Below, piece after piece: positions 5,715-25,153 of a DNA stretch of 26,467 nucleotides. The stretch lies in the IMG/VR virus record IMGVR_UViG_3300009428_000057, positions 1-26,467 of that record; one strand, given 5' to 3'. Source of the DNA: a virus. Made by a program: the position numbers and the translations under genes. Numbering within the stretch: position 1 is the stretch's first letter; each line of letters begins with the position of its first letter. The notes beneath the pieces are model-generated. The model was not told where the DNA came from. It was given only the letters and a program-made list of their open reading frames with translations, and did no database searches.

Positions 5715-5742
5715 ATCTTAGGTAAACTGGAGAACCTAAGAT
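5715..5742 (+). promoter_or_regulatory. Start-codon hairpin with the ribosome-binding site in its loop
   Basis: ATCTTAGGT (5715-5723) pairs perfectly with ACCTAAGAT (5734-5742), a 9-bp stem with a 10-base loop AAACTGGAGA. The loop presents the Shine-Dalgarno GGAG (5729-5732). The last two paired bases are the A and T of the ATG at 5741. Folding would hold the start codon in a helix and expose the ribosome-binding site at the tip. This is an arrangement typical of translational operators bound by a protein, or of mRNA stabilisers. The pairing is seen directly. Regulation is inferred. Confidence 0.6.
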
Positions 5743-8700
5743 GGCTAGAACATTTGACGAAATCTATAACGACGTTTCGGCTTTATACGATCAAGAACAA
5801 GAAGTAAAAGTAGCAGAAGACTACACAACTCTGTCAGGTTCGCAGCTATTAGAGAACAACCAATTCCTACAAGACCTCACAAAATATTATAGAAATTCTG
5901 GTCAAAGTTTTACTTCGACCGAAGACATGCTTGACGAGTGGTACACCGACGAGCGATGGGACGATTGGAACTCTTTGTGGAAAGCAGGAGATTTAATTGA
6001 GTACGCCAATGCTGGAACAGACAAAGAGCTTATAGCGCGACTAGGTAGAGCGTGGTCAAACGCTCCCACTCGCGGCTCGTGGTGGGATAAGACACGCGAC
6101 ATCGGTGGCGCGTTAATCGCTGACCCGCTGAACTTTGCTGGTGGTGCAGGCGTAGCGGCTAAAGGTGCGAAGGCGGCACAGCTTGCGACACAGGCTGGGA
6201 AGTCTGCTGCTCAAGCTAAACGTGCAGGAATGTTTGCTGGTGCAGCAAAGGGTGCAAAGCAAGAAGGCGCAATTAGCGCGGGCGTTGAGCTGGGCTTCGA
6301 CGCGATGGATCAAAAGCGAGAAATTGATTACGGCCTGCGTGACGAATATTCCGTGGGCGATGCCGCGAAAGCGACTGCAATCGGTGCTGGCGTAGGTGGT
6401 GCAGTCGGTGGATTAATCGGTGGCGGCATAGGCCGGTTTAGCGGAGCAACTGAGAGCGCAATAGCAGATACTAACGCCGTAGCTATGGCTTCGAACCCAG
6501 ACTTTGCAGACTTTTCAAAGATTACGGATGCGGATTGGATCGAGGGCGGCACCAACTTAGCGATTAACACACGCAGACGTATAGCTGACTTGGAAGCTGA
6601 CATTCAAGAAAGCCAAACTGTAATTAACGATCCAACGTCACCTGACAAAGCATCAGCCGCCGAAAACATCGTTGCATCACAAACTGAGATCAACGACATC
6701 AGAATGTCGATTGAGCAAGTATCGGCTATCGAACGCGCGGTGGTCGAACGCCAACGTACAATAGATGCTGAATACCAGAAAGCATACGGCCAAGACGGTA
6801 AGGTAAATACGGAAGCGCAAGCGGAAGTCTCTGGGAAGATTAACGACCTTACGGCTGAGATGAGTGGGCTGCAAAACCAAGCACGAGATTTGCTGTCCAG
6901 ATCGTACTTAGACGAACCTGTTGAGGTCGATACTACACCCCCAATATCTAAGAAAGCTCAGAATAAAGCTGCAAAGAAAACGAAAGCGACAGAAGCAAAG
7001 GCAAAAGAACCGGCGGATGCAGCCGACACGCCAGAACCTTTTGCTGAAATTTTGGAAGTGGGAACGGCTGATGGCGTAAAAACGAAGGGTATTATGACCC
7101 ACACGCTTGACGCAAAAAGGAAAGCTATTGCTGAAAATGTTGGCGAGGAAGCCGCCGCAGCATACGAGAATGGCGTAAAATCTAATTTACAAGAAAGCGC
7201 AACTTCAACGCCAAAAGTAGAAGCAGAGCCAGTACAACTCAATGCTCTTGAGACTAAAGCAGCAAGTAGCATCGAGGGCGTTGCTCCGAAAAAAGCTGTG
7301 ACTTCGTTCGACCAGATTAAATACAACTCCCCAAGCCAAAAGGCAGCAGTACGCAAGCTGCTTGATGGGAAGAGCAGCGTCATCACGGAACAAGACGTTG
7401 TAGAACTATTTAATGCAGGAAAACTAAAAGCAAACGGAGCTAAGTTAGCGGCTCGTACGCCAATAGCTGTACTCCGAAAGGTTAACAACGAAATCCGTGA
7501 GGCTGCTGGGCAGGAAGTAAAAGATTTCGTAAAAGGTAAAGCTGCGACAGCAGCCGACGAACCAGCTACCGAAGCTGTCGAAGACGGAATAGACGCGGAA
7601 GCCGTTGTGCAGCAGGACATGGCAGACGCTGATGACATGGCGCAACTCGACAGCGAAGGGTCAGTCGAGGAAACACCAGACGGTAGCGTAGAAGAATACG
7701 TTCAAGCTGAAAACGATGGCAGCGAATTAGAGTGGGATTTTAGATCTTCAGGCCAGCAAGCCTCCATCGAAGCGTCCTACCAGAAATACGGTGTAGACGA
7801 AGACTTCCTTGATGGCCTGGTCCAGAAGGGAATTGTAAAGCTCACACCAAAAGGCAAACTGTCTCAAGAAGGTAAGAAGACTTTTGAGAAGGAAGCCGAA
7901 GAGTATTCGAAAGACATAGACGAATACCTCAAAAAGCCAGAGGGCAAGACAGCTCAAGAAAAGATCGACGCTGACGAGCAGGCAATCAACCAAGAAAATT
8001 ACGAAGGCGAGTGGGGGACCACTAATCTGCATGCCGAAATTGTTTATCGGGCCATTGTCGAAATGGTTGCTGATGCAAGTGACCCTACGAAAGAACTTAA
8101 CAGATTAATAGAACAAGTATCTACGCACGAAGGTTACAGTGGTGAGCTTAAACGTCGCGTAAAACAAATGATTACGGCTCAGTTGGAAACAGGCCAAGAC
8201 CCTGTTCCAAACCGCACCATTCGTAGCGGCGGTAGCCGTGTCGAAACTGCGATGAAGCGTGAAAAGAACGCTGGTATTACGTTCCGACTGGAACCTGACA
8301 CGAAAGAAGGGCGCTCAGTCTACAAGGGAAAGATACAGTCTTTCCTCAAGAGAGGCTACGCAAGTGGCAGCGAAGACGGTCGCACAGTCATCAGCATTGA
8401 TGACGTAATAACGAACTCCAAGCTCAAAAAGATGGAAGCGCAATCTATTCTTGATGAGGATACTCGCGGAGTTTCAATTGCCAAGCTGGAAAAAACAATA
8501 GCTCGGCTAGAAAAGCAAAAAGCTAAAAACAAATCTGGCAAACTAAAGCCAGAGGCCGAGGCAAACTTAGCAGGTCTTAAAACAAGACTAGCAACAGAAT
8601 TAGCTACTCCTCCCACAGACACATACATTGCATACAAGCCGAACGGCAATCAAACCGCAGACGACCTACCGCAAGGCACACGATTTAGAGATACGGATTT

Positions 8701-11700
8701 CGATACGGCCTACGAAGTAATCGTACGTACAAAAGATGGGGCCAAGTTTCGTACATTTTCTACGCTCGAAAGGCTCAACGAATTTCTAGGGAATGTCCGT
8801 AAGGCTGACGAGGAAGAAGTGCAGTCTATCGTTCGCAGCGCAGAAGATATGACAGCCGCTATCGACGACGCTCTTTCTGGCGATAAGAGCTTGGAAGAAA
8901 AGGCTGCGCTAGTCGAAGAGTTGAGGCGCACAACCGTCAAGCCAAAAGCAAAGCCTAAGACCGCCGCGAAAGACATACCAAACGTGCCTGTTTTCCGCGA
9001 CGAAAACGAGGACATGGTTCTTGCATTAGTGCCGCGCGATATGGTCGGTACATCGGTTAAGAACGCTGGCTCTAAGCTTGCGAGAATAATTAACGAAACG
9101 CAGATAGAAGCTGGGGCAAATGTTAAAGAGCTACTGGGGTCACTAGAGAAGAATGATCTGAACGAATTTGCTATTGGATACTTGCCCGTACAAGCCAGAA
9201 AGTTCCGCTCGAACAGACGGCGAATCGAAGACTTGTTCGTACCCCTCAACAAAGAGAATGGTCTGGGCGCAGCTTCGGAAATAGGCAGGGATGCTGAAGG
9301 CTTTGAGGCGTTCGTACCTCGCAAGATGCCCTTAACTGCGGCTGAAACAAACCAGACAACATTTAAGTTGAGCGATGAGAAAGTATCCATCGGTGCGGAA
9401 CGTGCAATCTTTAAGGTTCTTGATGACGTTGGGGCAAGCGGCGTACCCGAAGAGCTACGCGGTGGTAAGCGGTTAGAACACTTCAATGACAACATGAAGA
9501 ACCGCGATTTTACGTTGAACGAATTGAACCAAATCATTCGTACATACGAAGTTGCGCCGTTTACTTTTAAAGGACAAGATCAAAGAATAGTCCCGATGCA
9601 GACGCGGCTGCAAGTGCTGTCGTTCCTTGAGGGTCTGCGGTACGACCTAGCTCCAAATGGATTTAGAAAACCAACTTCTACATTGGTGGAGGCGCAGCAG
9701 CAGTTAGCTTACATAACCAAAGGCGTATCCAAAAAGGAGCGCCAAGTTGCCGAAGAGCTTTTGGGGATTGTTTCGACGGAAAGCAAAGCGCCTGTCTTGC
9801 GCTTTAACCAAGACAGCGGCGATGTTATGGGCGCGTTCGATCCGTCTACGAATGCTGTGGAAATCGCTGATAAAGCTGGGCCAATAACATTTAACCTAAC
9901 TCTTGCGCACGAATTGGGCCACTGGTCTTGGGACAACATCGCATCCTCGCAACTCAAGCGTGAGTTCTGGGAAATAATGAGTGAGAAGTTTTCCACTCCG
10001 ACAGGCCAAGTAAAGTCTGGTGCGGATGCAGTAATGGAAGAGATGTCTCCTGTCATGCGCTGGGGTCAAAAAAGCCAAAAGTCGATTGGTCAGGACATAT
10101 CGGAGCATACGCCGCAAGAAATGTGGGCTAACCAATTCTCCATGTATCTCTTGCATCGCAAAGGGATTGACGTTGGAGAAAAAGAATTCTTCAAGCGGCA
10201 TAAGTTCTTCTTCGAAAAGTGGTTCGATAAAATCAAGGTTCTTTACAAAAAGATCCGTGGCGAAAACATATTCGATCCGCAGCTAGAACCCATCTTCCGT
10301 AACTTAATCGCTGACAAGCGCGAGTTTGTTTATCGTAACTACCTCAATCCTGTCGAAGCCAAGTCATCGAAAGGCAAAGCTTTGGAGCGTAGATACAGAG
10401 AAGTGTATGACGCTCGCAAAGTCTTGCAGGACAAATTAAAGTCTGGTGATCCCGAAGCTGTGGCTATTGCAGCGCGTGAAATTCAGTCGGCTCTTTACTC
10501 TATGGGTATGAGTAAAAAAGATGCTGAATTTATCGTACGCTCTCAGAACAAAAAGATTGTATCTGATGCTGCGAAACAAGGCAGAACACCAACCGATGCA
10601 GAGATGCGCCAGGTTAATACTAGCGGTACATTGTCGGTGATGAAGGGCAAAGGACTGAGCAACAAGATGGTTACTGCTGGTCGTAGAATAAACGAGCTGA
10701 TCGTAAACGAGAAGGACGTATTCGATCCGAACGGAAACGAAGCAGGCGTAGTCGGACTTAATACTGTCGAAAACGTAAACGAATTTTATAACACTGAGCT
10801 AAAGCAACTTCTTACAGAAGTGATGGAACGTCTTAACACTGGGTTCCAAGACGTAGAATATGGTGACATGCCATCATACGTGCCTACGAAAGACTTCATG
10901 GGATTACGTGAAGTCATTGGCATGGACACTATTAACAAGGCCCGTAAGTTTAAGGAAGTTAAGCGAGCCATTAATCAGAAGAGTGCGTCTGGAAAGCAAG
11001 CAGCTAAAAACGCTGTTAACAATATTGATAAAATCAAAAGCGAGAATGACGGCTCTGTATCCAAGGAAACAATGGAAGGTGCAGAACTTCTTCACGCGAA
11101 CGCTGACATTCCAGAGCTGGTACGCACACTTGTTAATGCCAAGGGAAAGACAGAAGAGGCTGCTGCCAAGCATGCGCTTGCTGATGCCATGCACCGTAAC
11201 TTCATTCCAAAAATAAACGACAAAGACCGGCGGTATAAAGAGGCAAACATAAAAGAATTGCCAGCTTTAGCTCTTGATCGCTTGATAAAGCACGACGATA
11301 AAGTCGGTTACTTTCAAGCAATGGCCGAGCTTGCAAATAAAAAATACTACAAGAACTTCAAGATTAACGCGCTCCCAGACAAAAAATCCGAGATGCGTGT
11401 TCGCCTGCCAAGCGAAGACAACTTGGGGATCGATCCAGAACTCGACCTCATCACTACGGAAGTTCTTAAAACAAAGAGCCATCGCACAGAGCGTAAGTCT
11501 TACGTCTTAAAAACTATGACTACTCGTCTAATCGACGAGGGCTTAGACATAAACGTGATGGAAGACCCAGAAAGTGCTGGGCTGAGTATGAACGCTGCGC
11601 GTAAGCAACTCCGTTTGGTTACGAACAACATCACTTCCAGTAACGGTGGCGACGTGCGTGTGGGCATTGGTCAGATTATGGACATGCTTCTGAACAGCTA

Positions 11701-14700
11701 TGGCGGGGCAAACAAATTCGCGTTCAATATGGATGTGTTGGAATACAAGCCAGATGAACTTGTCAATACGTTTGATGAACTAATGAACGAAACTGAGGTA
11801 GCGGGTTTCAAAACCAAAAGTCCGACACCGCAGATTTCTGTAATGAAAGAAGCGTTGATACCGATGGTGTTGGACGCGCTTGATTTCACAGGCGCCGAAG
11901 ATTTAATGAATAAATCAGTGCTATCAAGCGGCGACATCAAATCTTGGAAAGAACGTGCGAAACTTTCCAATTTGGACGTCGAGGCTATTAAGGACACATA
12001 TCGTTCGATAAACCCAGCCGCAGCCGACGATCAGGTCCAAGAGTTAATGAGAGCCGTGGCGCACATAACTTCTGGGATGATAAGCAATGCGGATGCACAA
12101 CGCCGCTTTTTGCCACTTAGCTTGTACGATATTGGAGGTGAGTACGCTCAGAGAATGCGTGGCTCTCCTGCTATAGAATATCTCGACGGTGAGGTTCCAG
12201 CGATCCTGGCAAAAGACTTCTCCGATGACCTGATGGATACGCATAGTATTCAGCAGAAGAAAGCCATTCGTAACTGGACTGGGAGTAAAAGCCCGATACC
12301 ACTTTACATTATGCGTGGTGGCACGAACGGGTTCCGCACGGCTGTCGCAGACCCGACGCGAATGCGCTACAATATGGAAGACTTTCTCAAACAGATGGAC
12401 GAAGAGGGGTTGGACGAAGACGCATTGGACGATGTAGTTTACGACGTGATTAACCTATCGGATAGTTACGATAGGATGGCAGAAGCTAAGTCATCTGGCG
12501 CAGACGCAGAGGAAATCATTTCCATACAGAGAGAAATCGCAGATGCTCACAGATACTTGAAAGGTAAGCCTGAGACTAAAGCGGTTTACGATAGAGAAGA
12601 CTTTGTTACGCCCGTATACGTGAAAGACGATGACCCTCTCTTTATCCCACAGGTAATAAACGTTGAACCAGAGGGCGATGGCGCAAGATACCTACAGGAT
12701 ATAAGCGACCGCCTTTCAGCGGTGATGAAAGCCAAGGGTAGACTGAGCGATTACATTTTTGAAGTTAATGACTACGACAGCACCTTCGACTTGCCGCGAG
12801 GTACTCGTTCGGTGAGAGGCGTAGATGTATTGACCGGAATGTATAAATTCGTAGCTGCCTCCATGCCTCACAAGGCACAAGACGTGGAGCGCGAACTGTT
12901 CCGTAAGCTGCGACAGGCTGGGTTCTCCACGCTCACTGTGCGATCACCTGACTGGGCTAAATACTACGATCCGTACGCTCCAGAAGTTATCTCACGCTAC
13001 CAAAGGACGATGGCAAACTTCACGGGCGAACCGTCGATGGCCGATATCGGTGCGCAGTACAAAGATAGCACTCTTAGTGCTATCCGAGACATGAATTTGT
13101 TTAGCCCATCGAGTAGGTACACTGCGCCAATTGCGAGAGGCATCAACTCGACTATCATTCTTGACCCCGCGAAAGCCAAGAAAGTAAACGACCCTTACTT
13201 TTCTAATCTTAACATACCATCCGAGAAGTCATTCATGGCTTCGGGCGCACCATCCATGTCATACGTGGACGCTCTGATGGACAACCCAGACAGCGCATGG
13301 AAAGCGAGGCTACGTGCAGCCAAGCAGCTAGAGGCTGGTGGTATTCCGAGCGCAAGCCTCAACACTATCGTCAAGATGGGTAAAGGGCAGAAGGTTACTA
13401 AAGCAGACGTCGAGAAGCTCAACAAAGTCAGCAGCCTTTTCACCATGAAAACAAATGGTGGGATCATACGCGCATCTGGCATGAATTGGCTGGCACGTTT
13501 CGTAGAGCCAGAGGACGGTTCGGGCGGTCACTTTGAGCGCGTCAACGCAAAAATGGGACGGTTCCTTGTACCTCTCACACGTAAGCTGCACAGGCTCCCG
13601 AATAAGAATGGTCGATCTAGCAATATGGTCGAGCGTTACTACCAGCAAGGCTTCTTGCAAATGGCCGATGCAACGCGCAAGGGCTTCGGTTCTATCGTGG
13701 GCATGGCTCCAACAACACGCATCAACCAGCCGATAGCTCACGAAAGAATAGCGCAAGCGTTACGCAACAGAGGTAGTGCTGATGGACTTCGCCCTAAAGA
13801 AAAGGAAGTTTATGAGGAAATCCAGCAATACTTTAAGCAAGCGCACAACCGTCTGACCCAAGCTGGCATTCAGATCGGTGAGATAAAGGAAGATTATTTT
13901 CCGCAAATCTGGCGAAGAGATTTGATCGAAGCCAACGAAGAAGAGTTCAAACGTAACCTTGCTCGCTATTTCCAAGAGGAGCATCTCGTCCGTGAGGGCG
14001 ATAATCTCGCAGGAGATAAGGCACTAGCGAAAGCCAGCTCTGTATTCCTAAAGCTCACTGCCGAGGATGGGGTGCTGACTGGTGATCCTATGCAGTTCTA
14101 CTCTCGCAAGACAGCAGACAATGCCGACTTCCAAAGGCTTATCAGGCTCGACCAGTTCCCAGATTTCGTGAAGGCTGGTAATCCAAACAACTTGTCTAAG
14201 TTCCTAGAGAATGACTTGCTTATCGTAATGACTAAGTATGCGGATAACGTCGAGCATCGTCTGGACTTGGTTGACCAGTTCGGTGTCGGTGGTCACGCGC
14301 ATCACGATTATCTAGCTACAATATCTGGTGGGCCAGATGCTATATCAAGGCTGCTGCGCTCCAACAAAGTTCTCAAGCGTAACTACCGTACATTCCTCAA
14401 CAACCGTCTTGACGATGATGCGGATGTAGACGAAGGCGGCATGGTCGGTATCTTTAAGACTGACCACTTCAAAGCTCCGATACAAAAGTCTGGTATCGAA
14501 GGTAAGATGATAGCTGACAAGAGAGCAAACTCTTTAGTAAGCATGGCTAGGTCGGGCGCATCTTCGAAAGAAATGTTTAACGAGATGATGAAGTCTCTTG
14601 ATGTTTCGAAGGAAAGCTCTGGACCTGCTACGATGATGAAGAAGAACTTCGGCAAACGGGCCGAAGCTATAGCCAACGCGCTTTACGACACGAAAGGGTT

Positions 14701-16078
14701 TAGAGAACTTCCGAGCGAAGACAACATACGTCACGCGCAAGGCACGTTTAACGCTGTGCAGCGGCAACCGATTGATGGGTTCAGCCCACTCTATAACGGC
14801 AAGACTACATCAAAGTGGCTGCGGTCTATAAACGGCGTCACGTTACTGTCGTTCACAACGTTAACTTCATTGGGCGACTTGGTTCTCCCACTCGTAAGCA
14901 GTGGAGACTTTAAGTCTTCTTTCAACGGCATCCGTAAGTTTACCCAGTCAGGCACAGGTGGCGAAGAATATCGCGATATGATCCGTGGGGTAGGAGCCGC
15001 CGTAGAAAATATCGTACACCAGCGTATGACGACTGCGTTCGGTGTCGAAGCCACTCAGTTTAGTTCGGGCTTCTTTAATCTGTCATTGCTTACGCCGTGG
15101 ACCGATACGATGCGCGACATCTCTGCCGCTACGGGCTTCGAACACTTCAAGGCGCAGCAGAAAATTGCGCAGCGTTATTCTGGCACGAAGAAAGGACGTA
15201 TAGCCAAGCAAATTTTATCAGAGTACGGGCTTGCGGATCTTGCGGATGCGAAAGCCCCTCCGGTCGAAAGTATAATGAAACAATCGCCTTTGGGTCAGAC
15301 GCACGATATGTACGATAAGGTCGCTTCGTCCGTAATTAAATTTACGAACCAGTCTATCTTCACCCCCAATCCGAATGACATACACCTATGGGGTCAGACC
15401 CCTATCGGCGCTATCTTGTACCAGCTAAAATCATTCCCAATGATGATGGCGCGTCTTGGTGGCCGCAACATTCGTAAAGCAAAAGACGGTAACTGGAAGC
15501 CTCTCGCGTACATGGCTACGGTAATGCCCGCAATGGGCTACGGCGCAGCATCAATCAAGGACGTAGTGCAGGGCAGAGGTGGCGAGGAGAACAGAGAGTT
15601 TGCTTCACGCGAGCGCAAGCTGACAGACAGCTACGCAAGTGCAGAAGGCATGGTCAACAGGGTGTCCGACGACTTGGGCATAGATGCTGACAGATACCTC
15701 GGCATGTATCACGATGGTCTGATGATGTCGGGTGGTCTTGGCTTCGTCGGAGAAATGCTAGTGGACATAGCCAACCAAACTGACAACGGCTACTACGGTA
15801 TGTGGCGTACAGCCACGGCAATCGGTGGGCCATCCGTTTCACTGGGCGGCAGAGCAGTCAGAGTTCTTGGTGGGGTTCAGGATGCGGCCTTCGATGCAAT
15901 GGGATTTGAATCTACTAACTACAAAGAGCGTGACGCATTTGATGCTTCGTTCGGATTAGTTCCGTTTGTCGGTCAGATGCCAGCCGTAAAAGAAAATCTA
16001 AAAGATATGTTGCTAGGAGAAAGCTCTAAGAAGAGCCGGTCTTCGGATCAAGCATTTGGACTTGATTTTGATCTTTAG
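5741..16078 (+). CDS. Giant phage polyvalent virion protein with zincin-type peptidase motif (3445 aa)
   Basis: The single uninterrupted ORF is 10.3 kb, with ATG after GGAG inside a hairpin. Residues about 115-235 are rich in Ala and Gly with hydrophobic runs (for example AIGAGVGGAVGGLIGGGIG), plausible for membrane insertion. Residues 240-1000 are charged and coiled-coil-like. H1390-E-L-G-H1394 forms an HExxH zinc site, with E1460 (in QEMWANQF) as likely third ligand, resembling metallopeptidase domains of phage large polyvalent proteins. Near residue 2200 an LYIMRGG segment, with a later STIILDP motif, loosely recalls phage ADP-ribosyltransferase-like domains; this is weak. The last 850 residues (DYFPQIW, LKSFPMM, hydrophobic helices) look like the conserved C-terminus of giant virion proteins. 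It is probably packaged and ejected, as gp16 is in T7. Residues typical of the N4 virion RNA polymerase were not found. The 3' end overlaps the convergent gene by 53 bp. Confidence 0.72.
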   Translation: MARTFDEIYNDVSALYDQEQEVKVAEDYTTLSGSQLLENNQFLQDLTKYYRNSGQSFTSTEDMLDEWYTDERWDDWNSLWKAGDLIEYANAGTDKELIARLGRAWSNAPTRGSWWDKTRDIGGALIADPLNFAGGAGVAAKGAKAAQLATQAGKSAAQAKRAGMFAGAAKGAKQEGAISAGVELGFDAMDQKREIDYGLRDEYSVGDAAKATAIGAGVGGAVGGLIGGGIGRFSGATESAIADTNAVAMASNPDFADFSKITDADWIEGGTNLAINTRRRIADLEADIQESQTVINDPTSPDKASAAENIVASQTEINDIRMSIEQVSAIERAVVERQRTIDAEYQKAYGQDGKVNTEAQAEVSGKINDLTAEMSGLQNQARDLLSRSYLDEPVEVDTTPPISKKAQNKAAKKTKATEAKAKEPADAADTPEPFAEILEVGTADGVKTKGIMTHTLDAKRKAIAENVGEEAAAAYENGVKSNLQESATSTPKVEAEPVQLNALETKAASSIEGVAPKKAVTSFDQIKYNSPSQKAAVRKLLDGKSSVITEQDVVELFNAGKLKANGAKLAARTPIAVLRKVNNEIREAAGQEVKDFVKGKAATAADEPATEAVEDGIDAEAVVQQDMADADDMAQLDSEGSVEETPDGSVEEYVQAENDGSELEWDFRSSGQQASIEASYQKYGVDEDFLDGLVQKGIVKLTPKGKLSQEGKKTFEKEAEEYSKDIDEYLKKPEGKTAQEKIDADEQAINQENYEGEWGTTNLHAEIVYRAIVEMVADASDPTKELNRLIEQVSTHEGYSGELKRRVKQMITAQLETGQDPVPNRTIRSGGSRVETAMKREKNAGITFRLEPDTKEGRSVYKGKIQSFLKRGYASGSEDGRTVISIDDVITNSKLKKMEAQSILDEDTRGVSIAKLEKTIARLEKQKAKNKSGKLKPEAEANLAGLKTRLATELATPPTDTYIAYKPNGNQTADDLPQGTRFRDTDFDTAYEVIVRTKDGAKFRTFSTLERLNEFLGNVRKADEEEVQSIVRSAEDMTAAIDDALSGDKSLEEKAALVEELRRTTVKPKAKPKTAAKDIPNVPVFRDENEDMVLALVPRDMVGTSVKNAGSKLARIINETQIEAGANVKELLGSLEKNDLNEFAIGYLPVQARKFRSNRRRIEDLFVPLNKENGLGAASEIGRDAEGFEAFVPRKMPLTAAETNQTTFKLSDEKVSIGAERAIFKVLDDVGASGVPEELRGGKRLEHFNDNMKNRDFTLNELNQIIRTYEVAPFTFKGQDQRIVPMQTRLQVLSFLEGLRYDLAPNGFRKPTSTLVEAQQQLAYITKGVSKKERQVAEELLGIVSTESKAPVLRFNQDSGDVMGAFDPSTNAVEIADKAGPITFNLTLAHELGHWSWDNIASSQLKREFWEIMSEKFSTPTGQVKSGADAVMEEMSPVMRWGQKSQKSIGQDISEHTPQEMWANQFSMYLLHRKGIDVGEKEFFKRHKFFFEKWFDKIKVLYKKIRGENIFDPQLEPIFRNLIADKREFVYRNYLNPVEAKSSKGKALERRYREVYDARKVLQDKLKSGDPEAVAIAAREIQSALYSMGMSKKDAEFIVRSQNKKIVSDAAKQGRTPTDAEMRQVNTSGTLSVMKGKGLSNKMVTAGRRINELIVNEKDVFDPNGNEAGVVGLNTVENVNEFYNTELKQLLTEVMERLNTGFQDVEYGDMPSYVPTKDFMGLREVIGMDTINKARKFKEVKRAINQKSASGKQAAKNAVNNIDKIKSENDGSVSKETMEGAELLHANADIPELVRTLVNAKGKTEEAAAKHALADAMHRNFIPKINDKDRRYKEANIKELPALALDRLIKHDDKVGYFQAMAELANKKYYKNFKINALPDKKSEMRVRLPSEDNLGIDPELDLITTEVLKTKSHRTERKSYVLKTMTTRLIDEGLDINVMEDPESAGLSMNAARKQLRLVTNNITSSNGGDVRVGIGQIMDMLLNSYGGANKFAFNMDVLEYKPDELVNTFDELMNETEVAGFKTKSPTPQISVMKEALIPMVLDALDFTGAEDLMNKSVLSSGDIKSWKERAKLSNLDVEAIKDTYRSINPAAADDQVQELMRAVAHITSGMISNADAQRRFLPLSLYDIGGEYAQRMRGSPAIEYLDGEVPAILAKDFSDDLMDTHSIQQKKAIRNWTGSKSPIPLYIMRGGTNGFRTAVADPTRMRYNMEDFLKQMDEEGLDEDALDDVVYDVINLSDSYDRMAEAKSSGADAEEIISIQREIADAHRYLKGKPETKAVYDREDFVTPVYVKDDDPLFIPQVINVEPEGDGARYLQDISDRLSAVMKAKGRLSDYIFEVNDYDSTFDLPRGTRSVRGVDVLTGMYKFVAASMPHKAQDVERELFRKLRQAGFSTLTVRSPDWAKYYDPYAPEVISRYQRTMANFTGEPSMADIGAQYKDSTLSAIRDMNLFSPSSRYTAPIARGINSTIILDPAKAKKVNDPYFSNLNIPSEKSFMASGAPSMSYVDALMDNPDSAWKARLRAAKQLEAGGIPSASLNTIVKMGKGQKVTKADVEKLNKVSSLFTMKTNGGIIRASGMNWLARFVEPEDGSGGHFERVNAKMGRFLVPLTRKLHRLPNKNGRSSNMVERYYQQGFLQMADATRKGFGSIVGMAPTTRINQPIAHERIAQALRNRGSADGLRPKEKEVYEEIQQYFKQAHNRLTQAGIQIGEIKEDYFPQIWRRDLIEANEEEFKRNLARYFQEEHLVREGDNLAGDKALAKASSVFLKLTAEDGVLTGDPMQFYSRKTADNADFQRLIRLDQFPDFVKAGNPNNLSKFLENDLLIVMTKYADNVEHRLDLVDQFGVGGHAHHDYLATISGGPDAISRLLRSNKVLKRNYRTFLNNRLDDDADVDEGGMVGIFKTDHFKAPIQKSGIEGKMIADKRANSLVSMARSGASSKEMFNEMMKSLDVSKESSGPATMMKKNFGKRAEAIANALYDTKGFRELPSEDNIRHAQGTFNAVQRQPIDGFSPLYNGKTTSKWLRSINGVTLLSFTTLTSLGDLVLPLVSSGDFKSSFNGIRKFTQSGTGGEEYRDMIRGVGAAVENIVHQRMTTAFGVEATQFSSGFFNLSLLTPWTDTMRDISAATGFEHFKAQQKIAQRYSGTKKGRIAKQILSEYGLADLADAKAPPVESIMKQSPLGQTHDMYDKVASSVIKFTNQSIFTPNPNDIHLWGQTPIGAILYQLKSFPMMMARLGGRNIRKAKDGNWKPLAYMATVMPAMGYGAASIKDVVQGRGGEENREFASRERKLTDSYASAEGMVNRVSDDLGIDADRYLGMYHDGLMMSGGLGFVGEMLVDIANQTDNGYYGMWRTATAIGGPSVSLGGRAVRVLGGVQDAAFDAMGFESTNYKERDAFDASFGLVPFVGQMPAVKENLKDMLLGESSKKSRSSDQAFGLDFDL

Positions 16079-19084: not shown

Positions 19085-19324
19085 ATGAAGCTAGATATCG
19101 AACAGCTAGTAGAGGATCTCGGTGGTTGCAGAGAGATCAGCGATAAACTTAGTATCAAGAAATCAATACCTTATGGATGGCTCCGACGAGACTTCCTAAG
19201 TTCGGATTATTTGAGCCTCATCAAGAAGGCGTACCCATCAATAAAAATCGATGCCTACTTTACAAAGAAAGAGGAGATAAAGAAACATGGACAAAAAGGA
19301 TATGCTGTTAAACGCGGCACTTGA
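19085..19324 (+). CDS. Cro-like helix-turn-helix regulator
   Basis: The 79-residue protein has a compact helical DNA-binding pattern: L-V-E-D-L-G-G-C-R-E-I-S-D-K-L followed by P-Y-G-W-L-R-R-D-F-L, like Cro/YdaS-type phage regulators in which a W-x-x-R recognition helix follows the conserved Gly turn. It is the first gene rightward from the overlapping promoters and so fits an early switch protein that represses one or both. Its last 38 bp overlap the primase gene in another frame, tying its expression to replication. The ribosome-binding site is a weak purine run. The repressor versus Cro role cannot be told from sequence. Confidence 0.7.
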   Translation: MKLDIEQLVEDLGGCREISDKLSIKKSIPYGWLRRDFLSSDYLSLIKKAYPSIKIDAYFTKKEEIKKHGQKGYAVKRGT

Positions 19325-21239
19325 GTACCTCGACCGAGGCTGGCTACCAATACCCATAAGAGAGGGAGAGAAAGCGCCTTCAATAAAATGGGGTCATTAC
19401 GTTGACAACTCTGTTTTGCCCAGCGAAGACGAAGTGATAAACTGGTGGACAAAATGGCCTGATGCAAAAATAGCATTGGTTACGTCACGCCTAACCAACT
19501 TAGTAGTCGTGGACTGTGATAGCACAGAGGCAATGAAACAAGCCGCCGATCTGGGCATAACCCACACACCGATAGCGGTGAAGACTAAGCGAGGCCACCA
19601 CTTCTATTTTGAACACGGAGATTTTGACTGGCACAAAAATGCAGTGGGCAGTAGCGCCAATGGTGTAGACTGGCCCAAGGTTGACGGATTAGATTTTCGT
19701 GGAAGCAAGGGCTACGTGATCGCACCGCCTTCGAATAATTACGAGTGGAAGATCGGCGTGGGCGCAGACGTAGACGACATGCCACAGTGGTTGCCGCAAA
19801 AGTTTACGCAATCGAATGTAGTGAGCATTGACCCGAACAAACAATTTATCTTCGAGGGAACTGACCTCTCTATGTTCAAGCCCAACACCATCTGGGAAGA
19901 AACGCAGGAAAAGGTTGACGCTCTCGGCCATAAGCTACCGGATGGTGGCGAGAACGGTAGGGATCATCGCCTGTGGTTGTGCATCTCGGAAGCTGCCGCG
20001 CAGAAAGAAGGTGTTAAAGGTCTTAGAGGTGACGAACTATTCAACAACGCCTGTCTGTTTATGGACACGTTCTTCCAGAACAACATTGACCATCAAAAAG
20101 TATGGCAGATGTGCGAGCGTGTTTCAGCAACGGATGATCGTAACCACCCAGATGTTGAGCCAGCAGTTCAGAAGGATGATGTGCCGACCACGAAAAGCAT
20201 CAAGCCTATCACGACAGGAGACATCGACAGACTTTCGGCAGAGGATGGTCAGAAAGAATTCTTCATTGAACCTTGGCTGGTCAAGTCAGGCACAATTGTA
20301 CAAGTCCACGGCTTTTCTGGACACGGCAAGTCGATGATAACTAGACACGCCTTGTACGCAGCCGCCGCAGGCCAGCGCAAGTTTGGGCCTTGGGACATCA
20401 ACGCTCGTCCGAGGGTGTTGTATCTTGACCACGAAAACTCTCGCAGCAACGTGATCTCTTTTCTATCCCAAGCGAAGAAAATGTACGGTGACGCAGGAGA
20501 AAACTTTATGCTCTGGTGTCCGTTCGATGATAGCGAGGATATGAACCTAAAGACCAAGGCTGGCGTGAGCAAGATGCAGGATTGGATCAACGAATGTAAG
20601 CCAGATGTAGTCGTGATCGACACGATAAGGTCGGCCTATCTCGGACTGTCTGAGAACAATTCGGAAGAGTGGTCGCTCATAAATTCGATGGCTATGCAGC
20701 TACGGAACAATCGGATCAGCGTAGTCATGTTGCATCATAGTAATAAGCCGCAAGAAGGTACTGTCTCTGGGCGTGAAGCTGGATCGTCCAACCAGTTATC
20801 TGCGCTCGAAACCCAGATAAAAATTACGCAAGTATTTGCTGACGAAGAGACAGCGCAAGTCCGTGCCGCTATCCACAGCCCTGACCTCTGGGAAAATCTA
20901 GGCCGAGGTCTGGAGACAGGCGAACGTTTGCAGATGGTAATCGAAGCTCGCTACGGAAAGACGAGAGAGTGGACGGACGTACATGAGCCTGTGCATCAGA
21001 TTGGATTTGCATCGAACGATGCCGAAGACATGCGAGTGGTGGCCCAGAAGTCAACGAAACAACGGGTTACTGGTTGGGCTGATGAGTGGGAAGACGCCCA
21101 AGGCAAAATGCGCCCAGCGCTTACGGATGCAGAGATCCAAGATAGGATAGGTGGGGTCAAACCTCTCAGCGTAATCAAAAAGTGGACGATGCCGATACGT
21201 TCGCTCAAGCACGTCCAAGGATTACTAGCTTCGAAATAA
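19287..21239 (+). CDS. Primase-polymerase fused to RepA-like helicase ATPase
   Basis: The protein has 650 residues. The N-terminal domain (1-170) is a bifunctional primase/polymerase: V-V-D76-C-D78 metal site, R-G-H-H105-F-Y-F, and D136-F-R138-G-S-K-G-Y-V-I-A-P-P-S. The C-terminal half is a RecA-fold ATPase with Walker A G342-F-S-G-H-G-K-S349 and Walker B V-V-V-I-D445-T, then M-L-H-H-S-N-K as in RepA/AAA_25 helicases. It would prime and unwind phage DNA at the origin. The start at 19287 is supported by AGGAG nine bases upstream, inside the Cro-like gene. No DNA polymerase is visible in the window, so elongation may rely on the host or on genes outside. Its TAA is immediately followed by the terminator of a minus-strand RNA. 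Confidence 0.9.
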   Translation: MDKKDMLLNAALEYLDRGWLPIPIREGEKAPSIKWGHYVDNSVLPSEDEVINWWTKWPDAKIALVTSRLTNLVVVDCDSTEAMKQAADLGITHTPIAVKTKRGHHFYFEHGDFDWHKNAVGSSANGVDWPKVDGLDFRGSKGYVIAPPSNNYEWKIGVGADVDDMPQWLPQKFTQSNVVSIDPNKQFIFEGTDLSMFKPNTIWEETQEKVDALGHKLPDGGENGRDHRLWLCISEAAAQKEGVKGLRGDELFNNACLFMDTFFQNNIDHQKVWQMCERVSATDDRNHPDVEPAVQKDDVPTTKSIKPITTGDIDRLSAEDGQKEFFIEPWLVKSGTIVQVHGFSGHGKSMITRHALYAAAAGQRKFGPWDINARPRVLYLDHENSRSNVISFLSQAKKMYGDAGENFMLWCPFDDSEDMNLKTKAGVSKMQDWINECKPDVVVIDTIRSAYLGLSENNSEEWSLINSMAMQLRNNRISVVMLHHSNKPQEGTVSGREAGSSNQLSALETQIKITQVFADEETAQVRAAIHSPDLWENLGRGLETGERLQMVIEARYGKTREWTDVHEPVHQIGFASNDAEDMRVVAQKSTKQRVTGWADEWEDAQGKMRPALTDAEIQDRIGGVKPLSVIKKWTMPIRSLKHVQGLLASK

Positions 21240-21286
21240 AAAAAGCCGACTACTAGGTGGGAGGAAACAAAACCTTTGTAGTCGGC
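21238..21286 (-). terminator. Intrinsic terminator of the minus-strand RNA
   Basis: Read on the minus strand, GCCGACTAC (21286-21278) pairs perfectly with GTAGTCGGC (21253-21245), and seven T follow at 21244-21238. Inside, AGGT/ACCT (bases 72-75 and 55-58 of the 21200 block) can extend the helix and leave a 13-base loop. The plus strand has no T-run after the stem, so the signal is directional. It overlaps the primase stop codon. Confidence 0.8.
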
Positions 21287-21423
21287 CAGTTACCACAATG
21301 GAATTGTGGCAGGGAGAAAGAAAACAACCGGACGAAATCGCGGCTTACGCTGATCGTTAAACGATCTACTTTGGCTAAACTCCTAAAGAGTTTCGCCATT
21401 AAGCTCTGAATTCGCTTAATCGC
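21238..21423 (-). ncRNA. Putative novel structured small RNA, about 186 nt
   Basis: A consensus-like promoter (TTGACT, 17 bp, TAAAAT) predicts a start near 21423 and a strong intrinsic terminator ends it at 21238. Between them, in transcript order, lie: hairpin ATTAAGC/GCTTAAT (21420-21414 with 21404-21398); hairpin GGC-AAACTC/GAGTTT-GCC with one mismatch (21397-21373); perfect hairpin GATCGT-TTA-ACGATC (21366-21352); a pyrimidine-rich single strand; hairpin CCACAAT-TCC-ATTGTGG (21309-21293); then the terminator hairpin. No ORF of note lies within. C/U-rich CTCCCTG and CCTCCC segments, the second in the terminator loop, could pair with ribosome-binding sites. The known RNA families I considered do not fit. 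An oop-like RNA, a replication primer or a trans-acting RNA are possible roles. Confidence 0.62.
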
Positions 21424-21433
21424 ACCGCGATTT
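21335..21433. other. Cloverleaf-like four-stem fold (DNA or plus-strand RNA)
   Basis: AAATCGCGG (21335-21343) pairs perfectly with CCGCGATTT (21425-21433), closing a multiloop that holds the three consecutive hairpins at 21352-21366, 21373-21397 and 21398-21420. This closing stem includes part of the minus-strand -10 box, so it would form in DNA or in a plus-strand readthrough transcript rather than in the minus-strand RNA. It resembles a tRNA outline but has no T-loop and the wrong arm lengths. An origin structure is one possibility. Confidence 0.5.
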
Positions 21434-21458
21434 TAGGCTTGCTTGTCAGAAAAGTCAA
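21430..21458 (-). promoter_or_regulatory. Strong sigma70-type promoter of the minus-strand RNA
   Basis: On the minus strand TTGACT (21458-21453) and TAAAAT (21435-21430) are separated by exactly 17 bp. Five of six bases match the consensus in each box. The predicted start is the G at about 21423. It reads toward the primase gene end, with no protein gene downstream. Confidence 0.72.
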
Positions 21459-21485: not shown

Positions 21486-21509
21486 TTTATTATGTTAGTT
21501 GTATATAAT
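21479..21509 (+). promoter_or_regulatory. Probable promoter for the HTH/nuclease/lysis genes
   Basis: A perfect TATAAT -10 lies at 21504-21509. The best -35, TTGCTA at 21479-21484, has a long 19-bp spacer, so an activator may help. Transcription would start near 21516, about 25 bases before the ATG at 21541. Confidence 0.45.
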
Positions 21510-24481: not shown

Positions 24482-24685
24482 CTCTTAACTCCTATTAAAG
24501 TATTTAGTCATCTACCTACTAAGCAGTAAAAACCTTCTAGGTTACTCAAAAGACTACAAAAAGTTTATATCTGCGGCAACTAAAAAAAAACTTGGAGAAA
24601 TATATTGACAAATAGATTGCGGATAGGCAACTTAAGTAGTGCTCACCAACCGGTAGGTAAAAACTTAAACAACGAGGAAACAACT
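24482..24685. promoter_or_regulatory. Divergent intergenic control region
   Basis: This AT-rich 204-bp gap lies between two divergent genes. Visible items: an exact -35 consensus TTGACA at 24605-24610, plus strand, without a matching -10 at 16-18 bp (CAACTT lies there); the inverted repeat AACCT-TCT-AGGTT at 24531-24543; and a duplicated TGCGG...GCAACT motif near 24573 and 24618. A poor -10 with a perfect -35 would fit an activated promoter, but no start site can be fixed. Confidence 0.4.
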
Positions 24686-25153
24686 ATGAGTAATTTAAAT
24701 TTGGCCCTAGAGATAGCGAGGCTAGAAGCAAAGGTTGATGTTCTTATTAACTTAGTATCGAACTTAAATGTAACTCACAACAATGCGCCACCAAAAGTGG
24801 AGCAACCATTACAACTGAACGCAAGTCAAGTCGGGGTAATGAGAGACATGTCGCCACGCCAACACGCAGCATTACAATTGCTGATCCAAGGCTGGCAGAA
24901 CAGGGAAATGTCAGAGCTAATGGGCGTCACAGAAAGCACAGTTAAGATGCACGTAAAAAAAGTATGTGACCGCTTCGGAGTAAAGACAAGAGGACAAGCA
25001 GCGATGCTTGGGCAAGAGATCATAAACATGATGCCGAAAGAAGACTACACTCGTTACTCTGGCGGGTTCCCCCCCGACTGGGGAGGATCGCTGTCATCCG
25101 CTGCCGGCCAAGACGACGCTTACTACCAGCTATACAAGCCAACTAGAATTTAA
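24686..25153 (+). CDS. LuxR/GerE-type helix-turn-helix regulator
   Basis: The ATG at 24686 is chosen, with GAGGAA eight bases upstream, giving 155 residues. A TTG at 24605 would add 27 residues of unlikely leader and coincides with a -35 box. Residues 1-27 form a short amphipathic helix (L-A-L-E-I-A-R-L-E-A-K-V) that could dimerise. Residues 55-110 are a full GerE domain: M-S-P-R-Q-H-A-A-L-Q-L-L, W-Q-N-R-E-M-S-E-L-M-G-V, T-E-S-T-V-K-M-H-V, G-V-K-T-R-G-Q-A. No receiver or autoinducer-binding domain is present, so it is a stand-alone reader of another cue or a constitutive regulator. Lying between lysis genes and integrase, it may act in lysis-lysogeny control. Confidence 0.85.
   Translation: MSNLNLALEIARLEAKVDVLINLVSNLNVTHNNAPPKVEQPLQLNASQVGVMRDMSPRQHAALQLLIQGWQNREMSELMGVTESTVKMHVKKVCDRFGVKTRGQAAMLGQEIINMMPKEDYTRYSGGFPPDWGGSLSSAAGQDDAYYQLYKPTRI

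Follow-up and report, generated by a model that had tools for sequence, protein, structure and literature searches.

A predicted anti-Shine-Dalgarno small RNA and a promoter-containing stem-loop beside the Prim-Pol gene of CRP-810-type marine phages

Gene context of the locus

The window analysed in this work is the whole 26,467-nt stretch of a 26-kb IMG/VR record (IMGVR_UViG_3300009428_000057). The phage is marine and temperate, and it belongs with the phages of the Roseobacter phage CRP-810 type. As the type phage, CRP-810 represents a marine family that is mostly temperate and comprises 251 metagenomic genomes (PMC11288001). It is the only named relative that carries the P2 gene; its gene order is the same as in the window and its Prim-Pol is about 40% identical. 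No similarity to named phages was found at the DNA level.

The gene of the replication protein that combines Prim-Pol (PF09250) and AAA_25 is located on the plus strand (19287-21239) and lies upstream of the element described below in almost every relative with enough sequence. The divergent neighbour of the element is P2 (21541-21882, plus strand), a small protein with CxxC pairs that is probably an HTH plus a zinc ribbon. P2 is followed by a PDDEXK/RusA-like resolvase gene. The left operon contains Sak4-, SSB-, and Cas4-exonuclease-like genes, and an integrase gene is present at the right. A TATAAT at 21504-21509 is probably part of the divergent plus-strand promoter of P2. In relatives, repeated AGGTGT/ACACCT or CTTTAGG motifs are found between the two promoters (in the window, the region to 21460) and are possible operators. 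We have also identified an unannotated P2 homologue in CRP-810 (6407-6697 of locus L007; about 14026-14316 of OR671924.1).

Predicted small RNA at the window locus

The original prediction for this DNA had proposed a structured minus-strand small RNA of no recognised family next to the Prim-Pol gene, with a near-consensus promoter, four hairpins, and a perfect terminator. All of these features are present at their proposed places. The sigma-70-type promoter (21430-21458, minus strand) consists of the -35 hexamer TTGACT (21458-21453), a spacer of 17 nt, and the -10 hexamer TAAAAT (21435-21430). The promoter pattern is not significant by itself (2 in the window against 3.2 expected from shuffles); a similar promoter is found at the same place in most relatives. 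The intrinsic terminator (21238-21286, minus strand) consists of a perfect 9-bp stem, GCCGACTAC (21286-21278) and GTAGTCGGC (21253-21245), followed by seven T (21244-21238), and its 3' end touches the Prim-Pol stop codon. This terminator was missed by a simple terminator scan because its loop is long. The promoter and the terminator together delimit a predicted small RNA of about 186 nt (21238-21423, minus strand).

Four hairpins are located in the predicted RNA, all read on the minus strand. Hairpin 1 (GCGATTAAGC / GCTTAATGGC, 21395-21423) is at the predicted 5' end, and it is followed by hairpin 2 (GGCGAAACTC / GAGTTTAGCC, 21372-21398) and hairpin 3 (GATCGT / ACGATC, 21352-21366). Hairpin 4 (CCACAAT / ATTGTGG, 21293-21309) precedes the terminator. 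The fold of the minus strand has a free energy of -61.3 kcal/mol with a z-score of -5.1, and none of 200 shuffles is as stable; the plus strand of the same region also has a stable fold (z-score of -3.7). No Rfam 15 family matched the sequence at the gathering score, and the only matches at E<=5 were sub-threshold and to unrelated families. A search of the sequence for tRNA and tmRNA also gave none.

Two features had been overlooked by the original prediction, namely the anti-Shine-Dalgarno loops and an inverted repeat that contains part of the promoter. The motif UCCUCCC (21259-21265, minus strand) is located in the loop of the terminator hairpin, where it is predicted to be unpaired (0.89 for its CTCCC part), and it is invariant across the window clade. 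A first C-rich motif of this kind, CUCCC (21312-21316, minus strand), is located in the linker and is CCUCCC in L005. The inverted repeat is a perfect 9-bp complementarity on the minus strand between AAATCGCGG (21425-21433), which overlaps the -10 hexamer, and CCGCGATTT (21335-21343). It surrounds the three 5' hairpins. This repeat is not significant in the window alone, where eight repeats of at least 9 bp with such loops occur in 26 kb, and it becomes significant through the comparison with relatives.

Compensatory changes in close relatives

Relatives were gathered with P2 as the marker gene in two IMG/VR scans that gave more than 150 loci, so elements located away from P2 would be missed. 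The element is present in four IMG/VR loci whose Prim-Pol is 94-96% identical, and two of these loci (L003 and L004) do not differ in sequence there. The covariation test was performed on only four distinct sequences, the window included, with the structure of the window as the reference. Standard pairs occupy 94.9% of the cells of this structure, and changes on both sides were found in six pairs. The structure has a covariation score of 0.155, compared with 0.089 for shuffles (none of 500 reaches it) and at most 0.042 for the slid controls.

Hairpins 2 and 4 and the terminator stem account for the changes. Within the window clade, the long-range stem hardly varies, and hairpin 1 is invariant in the four sequences except for its basal pairs. 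Stem covariation in related phages had been named by the original prediction as the comparison that could speak against a small RNA. The stems of the window clade do show compensatory changes, so this comparison does not speak against it.

Terminator and anti-Shine-Dalgarno motif in the window clade

A strong U-run terminator together with the (U)CCUCCC motif is found only in the clade that contains the window. The promoter, the fold, and the terminator recur there in 25 records (16 non-redundant) that have no conserved ORF, which together with the compensatory changes strongly supports the predicted small RNA. The C-rich motif was first noticed by eye and then tested on the same records. CTCCC is present in the minus-strand 3' regions of all 16 non-redundant records (2.8 expected from shuffles) and in none of the 16 on the plus strand. 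UCCUCCC is present on the minus strand in 11 of the 16 (0.15 expected; maximum of 2 in 200 shuffles) and is absent from the plus strand. The motif is often unpaired in a hairpin loop and flanked by stems of changing sequence, for example GGCAGAACAATCCTCCCTGTTCTGCC in L157 and GACAGACCAAACTCCTCCCATTGGTTCTGTC in L139. Among the sequence clusters, CTCCC lies within 150 nt of the stem in 10 of 10 with a terminator and in 4 of 35 without one. The terminator-bearing records also group together in the Prim-Pol tree, separately from the records with the ORF architecture; the exception is L145, which is inside the terminator group and has no U-run terminator.

The phages of the CRP-810 clade have a minus-strand ORF after the stem-loop. 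This ORF mostly encodes a conserved small protein (...RNR.KYPE.A.FVDEVR..FPDAKV..), and some relatives have a RuvC-like or nuclease-like ORF instead. In CRP-810 itself, an unannotated 105-aa minus-strand ORF that is conserved in relatives lies upstream of the P2 homologue and overlaps the Prim-Pol 3' end; its similarity to the DGQHR domain is weak and sub-threshold. A RuvC-like Holliday-junction resolvase ORF lies directly downstream of the stem-loop on the minus strand in L111, L112, L116, L120, L124, L180, and L182. Members of this family additionally have a gene for the PDDEXK/RusA-like resolvase, which is separated from these ORFs by P2.

A second promoter-like sequence (e.g. TTGTGC-17-TACATT, minus strand) is located just before the CCUCCC hairpin in many relatives, among them L157, L149, L140, L133, L132, and L160. 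A shorter RNA that starts before the anti-Shine-Dalgarno hairpin may therefore be made in those relatives, and in several of them this shorter RNA, rather than the long form, may be the active one. No second promoter before the motif hairpin was found in the window.

Proposed action of the small RNA in trans

Taken from the sequence, the reading that we somewhat favour is that the locus encodes a phage small RNA of about 186 nt that blocks translation through its C-rich motifs, with the promoter stem-loop overlaid at its 5' end. Transcription of the minus strand would start near 21423 and end at the terminator at 21238, where it would touch the Prim-Pol 3' end. The 5' half of the RNA would form a bundle of hairpins, and the 3' half would expose two C-rich motifs, namely UCCUCCC from the terminator loop and CUCCC from the linker. 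These C-rich stretches would most likely act in trans and pair with the Shine-Dalgarno sequence of at least one mRNA, of the host or of the phage, and the pairing would stop translation as the alpha-r14/AbcR-type RNAs do in Alphaproteobacteria. The family-wide stem-loop with the -10 hexamer would overlay the 5' end of this RNA and probably has a role at the DNA level, in promoter control or in replication.

A C-rich loop complementary to the Shine-Dalgarno sequence is the working part of the alphaproteobacterial alpha-r14/AbcR RNAs (PMC10746234). The hairpin loops of the alpha-r14 RNAs carry CCUCCUCCC, and these RNAs silence mRNAs by acting on the ribosome-binding site (PMC10746234). Because the loop works in this way there, we infer that the window RNA may repress mRNAs with GGGAGGA-like sites. 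Among the gene start regions of the window, the best duplexes were those with Prim-Pol (-14.1) and with a 75-aa gene (-15.3), which barely exceed random 39-mers (5th percentile of -13.2) and are not significant. GGGAGGA is seldom found at the start sites of these phages (3 in 9 records). Host mRNAs are thus plausible targets, given that the window holds no convincing target and that such sites are rare in the phages.

The predicted RNA resembles the alpha-r14 or 'cuckoo' RNAs (NfeR1) and AbcR1/2 in that hairpins with variable stems display a C-rich anti-Shine-Dalgarno motif. By the features tested, however, it is not a member of alpha-r14. It is encoded by a phage, its promoter is embedded in a long-range stem, and it carries UCCUCCC rather than CCUCCUCCC. 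Seven of the nine letters of the alpha-r14 9-mer are thereby kept in 11 of the 16 records, and CTCCC in all 16, whereas the full 9-mer is absent from the window RNA. The alpha-r14 RNAs have three hairpins that each carry the motif (PMC10746234), whereas in the window RNA the terminator loop holds a single motif and the linker a partial one.

Neither the predicted small RNA, whose loop could pair with ribosome-binding sites, nor the promoter-in-stem repeat seems to have been described before. Non-coding RNA is seemingly unreported for this phage family, and the CRP-810 paper is silent on small RNAs, promoters, and terminators (PMC11288001). With the predicted RNA, a family of marine phages with a global distribution would gain a small-RNA gene that is conserved and so far undescribed, and the finding suggests that such phages may share the anti-Shine-Dalgarno strategy of alphaproteobacterial small RNAs.

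Promoter-containing stem-loop across the phage family

The long-range stem is more widespread than the terminator and the motif. In every locus of the first scan that has enough sequence, and in nearly every locus of the second, a perfect stem forms the longest inverted repeat upstream of P2. Clustering at 75% identity gave 45 clusters with 37 arm sequences, and the cluster representatives have stems of 9-15 bp that enclose loops of about 70-130 nt. The 5' arm contains the minus-strand -10 hexamer in most clusters, usually with the hexamer starting 3 nt from the outer end of the arm, and most relatives have a TTGAC-like sequence (TTGAY/TTTAC) 16-17 nt upstream of it. Stems of at least 12 bp were found in 27 of the 45 clusters against 0 of 360 shuffles, and promoter scores of at least 9/12 in 32 of the 45 against 3.3% of shuffles; the shuffles, here as in the tests above, do not model phylogeny, and the clusters are related to each other, so the counts are not independent events. 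CRP-810 also carries the stem-loop. Only about 8 bp of the stem, as read by eye, are kept in loci of the L139/L140 type, no clear equivalent of the stem was found in L171 and L179, and the stem is present without a clear promoter at that place in L180, L190, L192, L195, and L196.

The predicted start of transcription is just downstream of the 5' arm, so most of that arm must be missing from any RNA made from this promoter. The perfect complementarity of the arms therefore points to the DNA, or to an unforeseen transcript, and the stem-loop may be a DNA-level element rather than part of an RNA, for example a replication origin like that of pRN1. The pRN1 origin is a stem-loop of about 100 bp, 54 bp downstream of the Prim-Pol gene, which is required for replication and conserved in structure and not in sequence; a similar loop occurs in phage BIP-1 (PMC4234260). 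By this analogy, the stem-loop at 21335-21433 would be the phage origin and the small RNA secondary, a reading that we hold as a tentative possibility. Prim-Pol/helicase would assemble on this DNA once it is folded or extruded, and the embedded promoter would drive transcription that helps in opening the origin or supplies RNA.

Besides the pRN1 precedent and the position of most of the 5' arm outside any RNA stem, the origin reading is supported by the striking likeness of the two elements, each a stem-loop of about 100 nt beside Prim-Pol whose structure is retained while its sequence changes. The element is almost always near the Prim-Pol gene and lies directly 3' of it in the window and most relatives. 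In L120 and L124, the stem is still perfectly complementary with its 3' arm inside the predicted start of the RuvC-like ORF. However, the element keeps its place beside P2 and not beside Prim-Pol where other genes intervene (L111, L112, L125, and L180), and unlike the pRN1 origin it holds a -10 hexamer. The pRN1-type protein combines an AEP primase with an SF3 helicase, whereas that of the window combines PF09250 with AAA_25. The GC skew of CRP-810 has no standout turning point at the element and is uninformative on this point.

It is conceivable, although doubtful, that the stem-loop is a family-wide switch, in which a candidate Prim-Pol origin holds the -10 hexamer of the divergent promoter and folding and transcription are mutually exclusive. 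Such a switch would link replication to the expression of the small RNA in one clade, and of a small protein or a resolvase in others. Kept over large divergence, the promoter-in-stem element is a concrete, testable candidate for the start of replication in such Prim-Pol phages or for its coupling to transcription. CRP-810 is in culture.

Antisense, leader, and other readings

The original prediction had compared the RNA to lambda oop. The layout agrees, since both are short minus-strand RNAs in the replication region that stop where the upstream plus-strand gene ends. The remainder of the comparison does not hold. The OOP RNA overlaps a regulatory coding gene in antisense at its 3' end, whereas the window RNA overlaps only the Prim-Pol stop codon, has no Rfam match, and carries a C-rich motif suited to action in trans. 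A cis-acting antisense RNA that pairs with the plus-strand transcript from Prim-Pol to P2 and lowers the expression of either gene, through RNase III or interference, is in our view unlikely. The position of the RNA makes it fully complementary to the intergenic part of that transcript, it ends at the Prim-Pol stop codon, and the promoters are divergent. However, it covers nothing of Prim-Pol beyond that codon, its predicted start is about 118 bp upstream of the P2 start codon, and perfect pairing does not need a conserved C-rich motif.

That the stem-loop is a structured 5' leader for attenuation or antitermination, left in the window clade without its downstream gene and without a function in trans, is quite improbable. 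The minus-strand ORF directly after the stem-loop in the CRP-810 clade and the lower free energy of the inner hairpins on the minus strand (27 of 30 clusters) are consistent with a leader. However, the energy z-scores do not differ between the strands (17 of 30), the 5' arm is mostly upstream of the predicted start, and much of the terminator-bearing clade conserves both the C-rich motif and the terminator, which would not be expected of a relic. The counts of G-U against A-C in conserved helices (13 against 14 in the inner stem-loop; 4 against 4 in the 3' domain) have no power as a strand test for selection on the RNA rather than on the DNA, because the 3' domain, which was the intended positive control, also shows no bias.

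A pair of operators bound by one protein is unlikely because P2 has a nearly invariant probable recognition helix (CCVDTxKRI), whereas the arm sequences vary from clade to clade; the loops of about 70-130 nt are also continuous in length without helical phasing. The element has the same orientation in all close relatives, which argues against an invertible promoter, no reverse transcriptase of a retron-like element is present among the genes examined, and a single-stranded promoter of the F-plasmid type is unlikely since the -35 hexamer is not paired.

Other observations in the window

A single 3445-aa ORF without a Pfam match occupies 5741-16078 and presumably encodes a giant internal virion protein. 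A LuxR/GerE-type HTH protein is encoded beside the integrase gene (24605-25153). Such a protein is known in CRP-810-type phages and has been proposed to affect lysogeny (PMC11288001).
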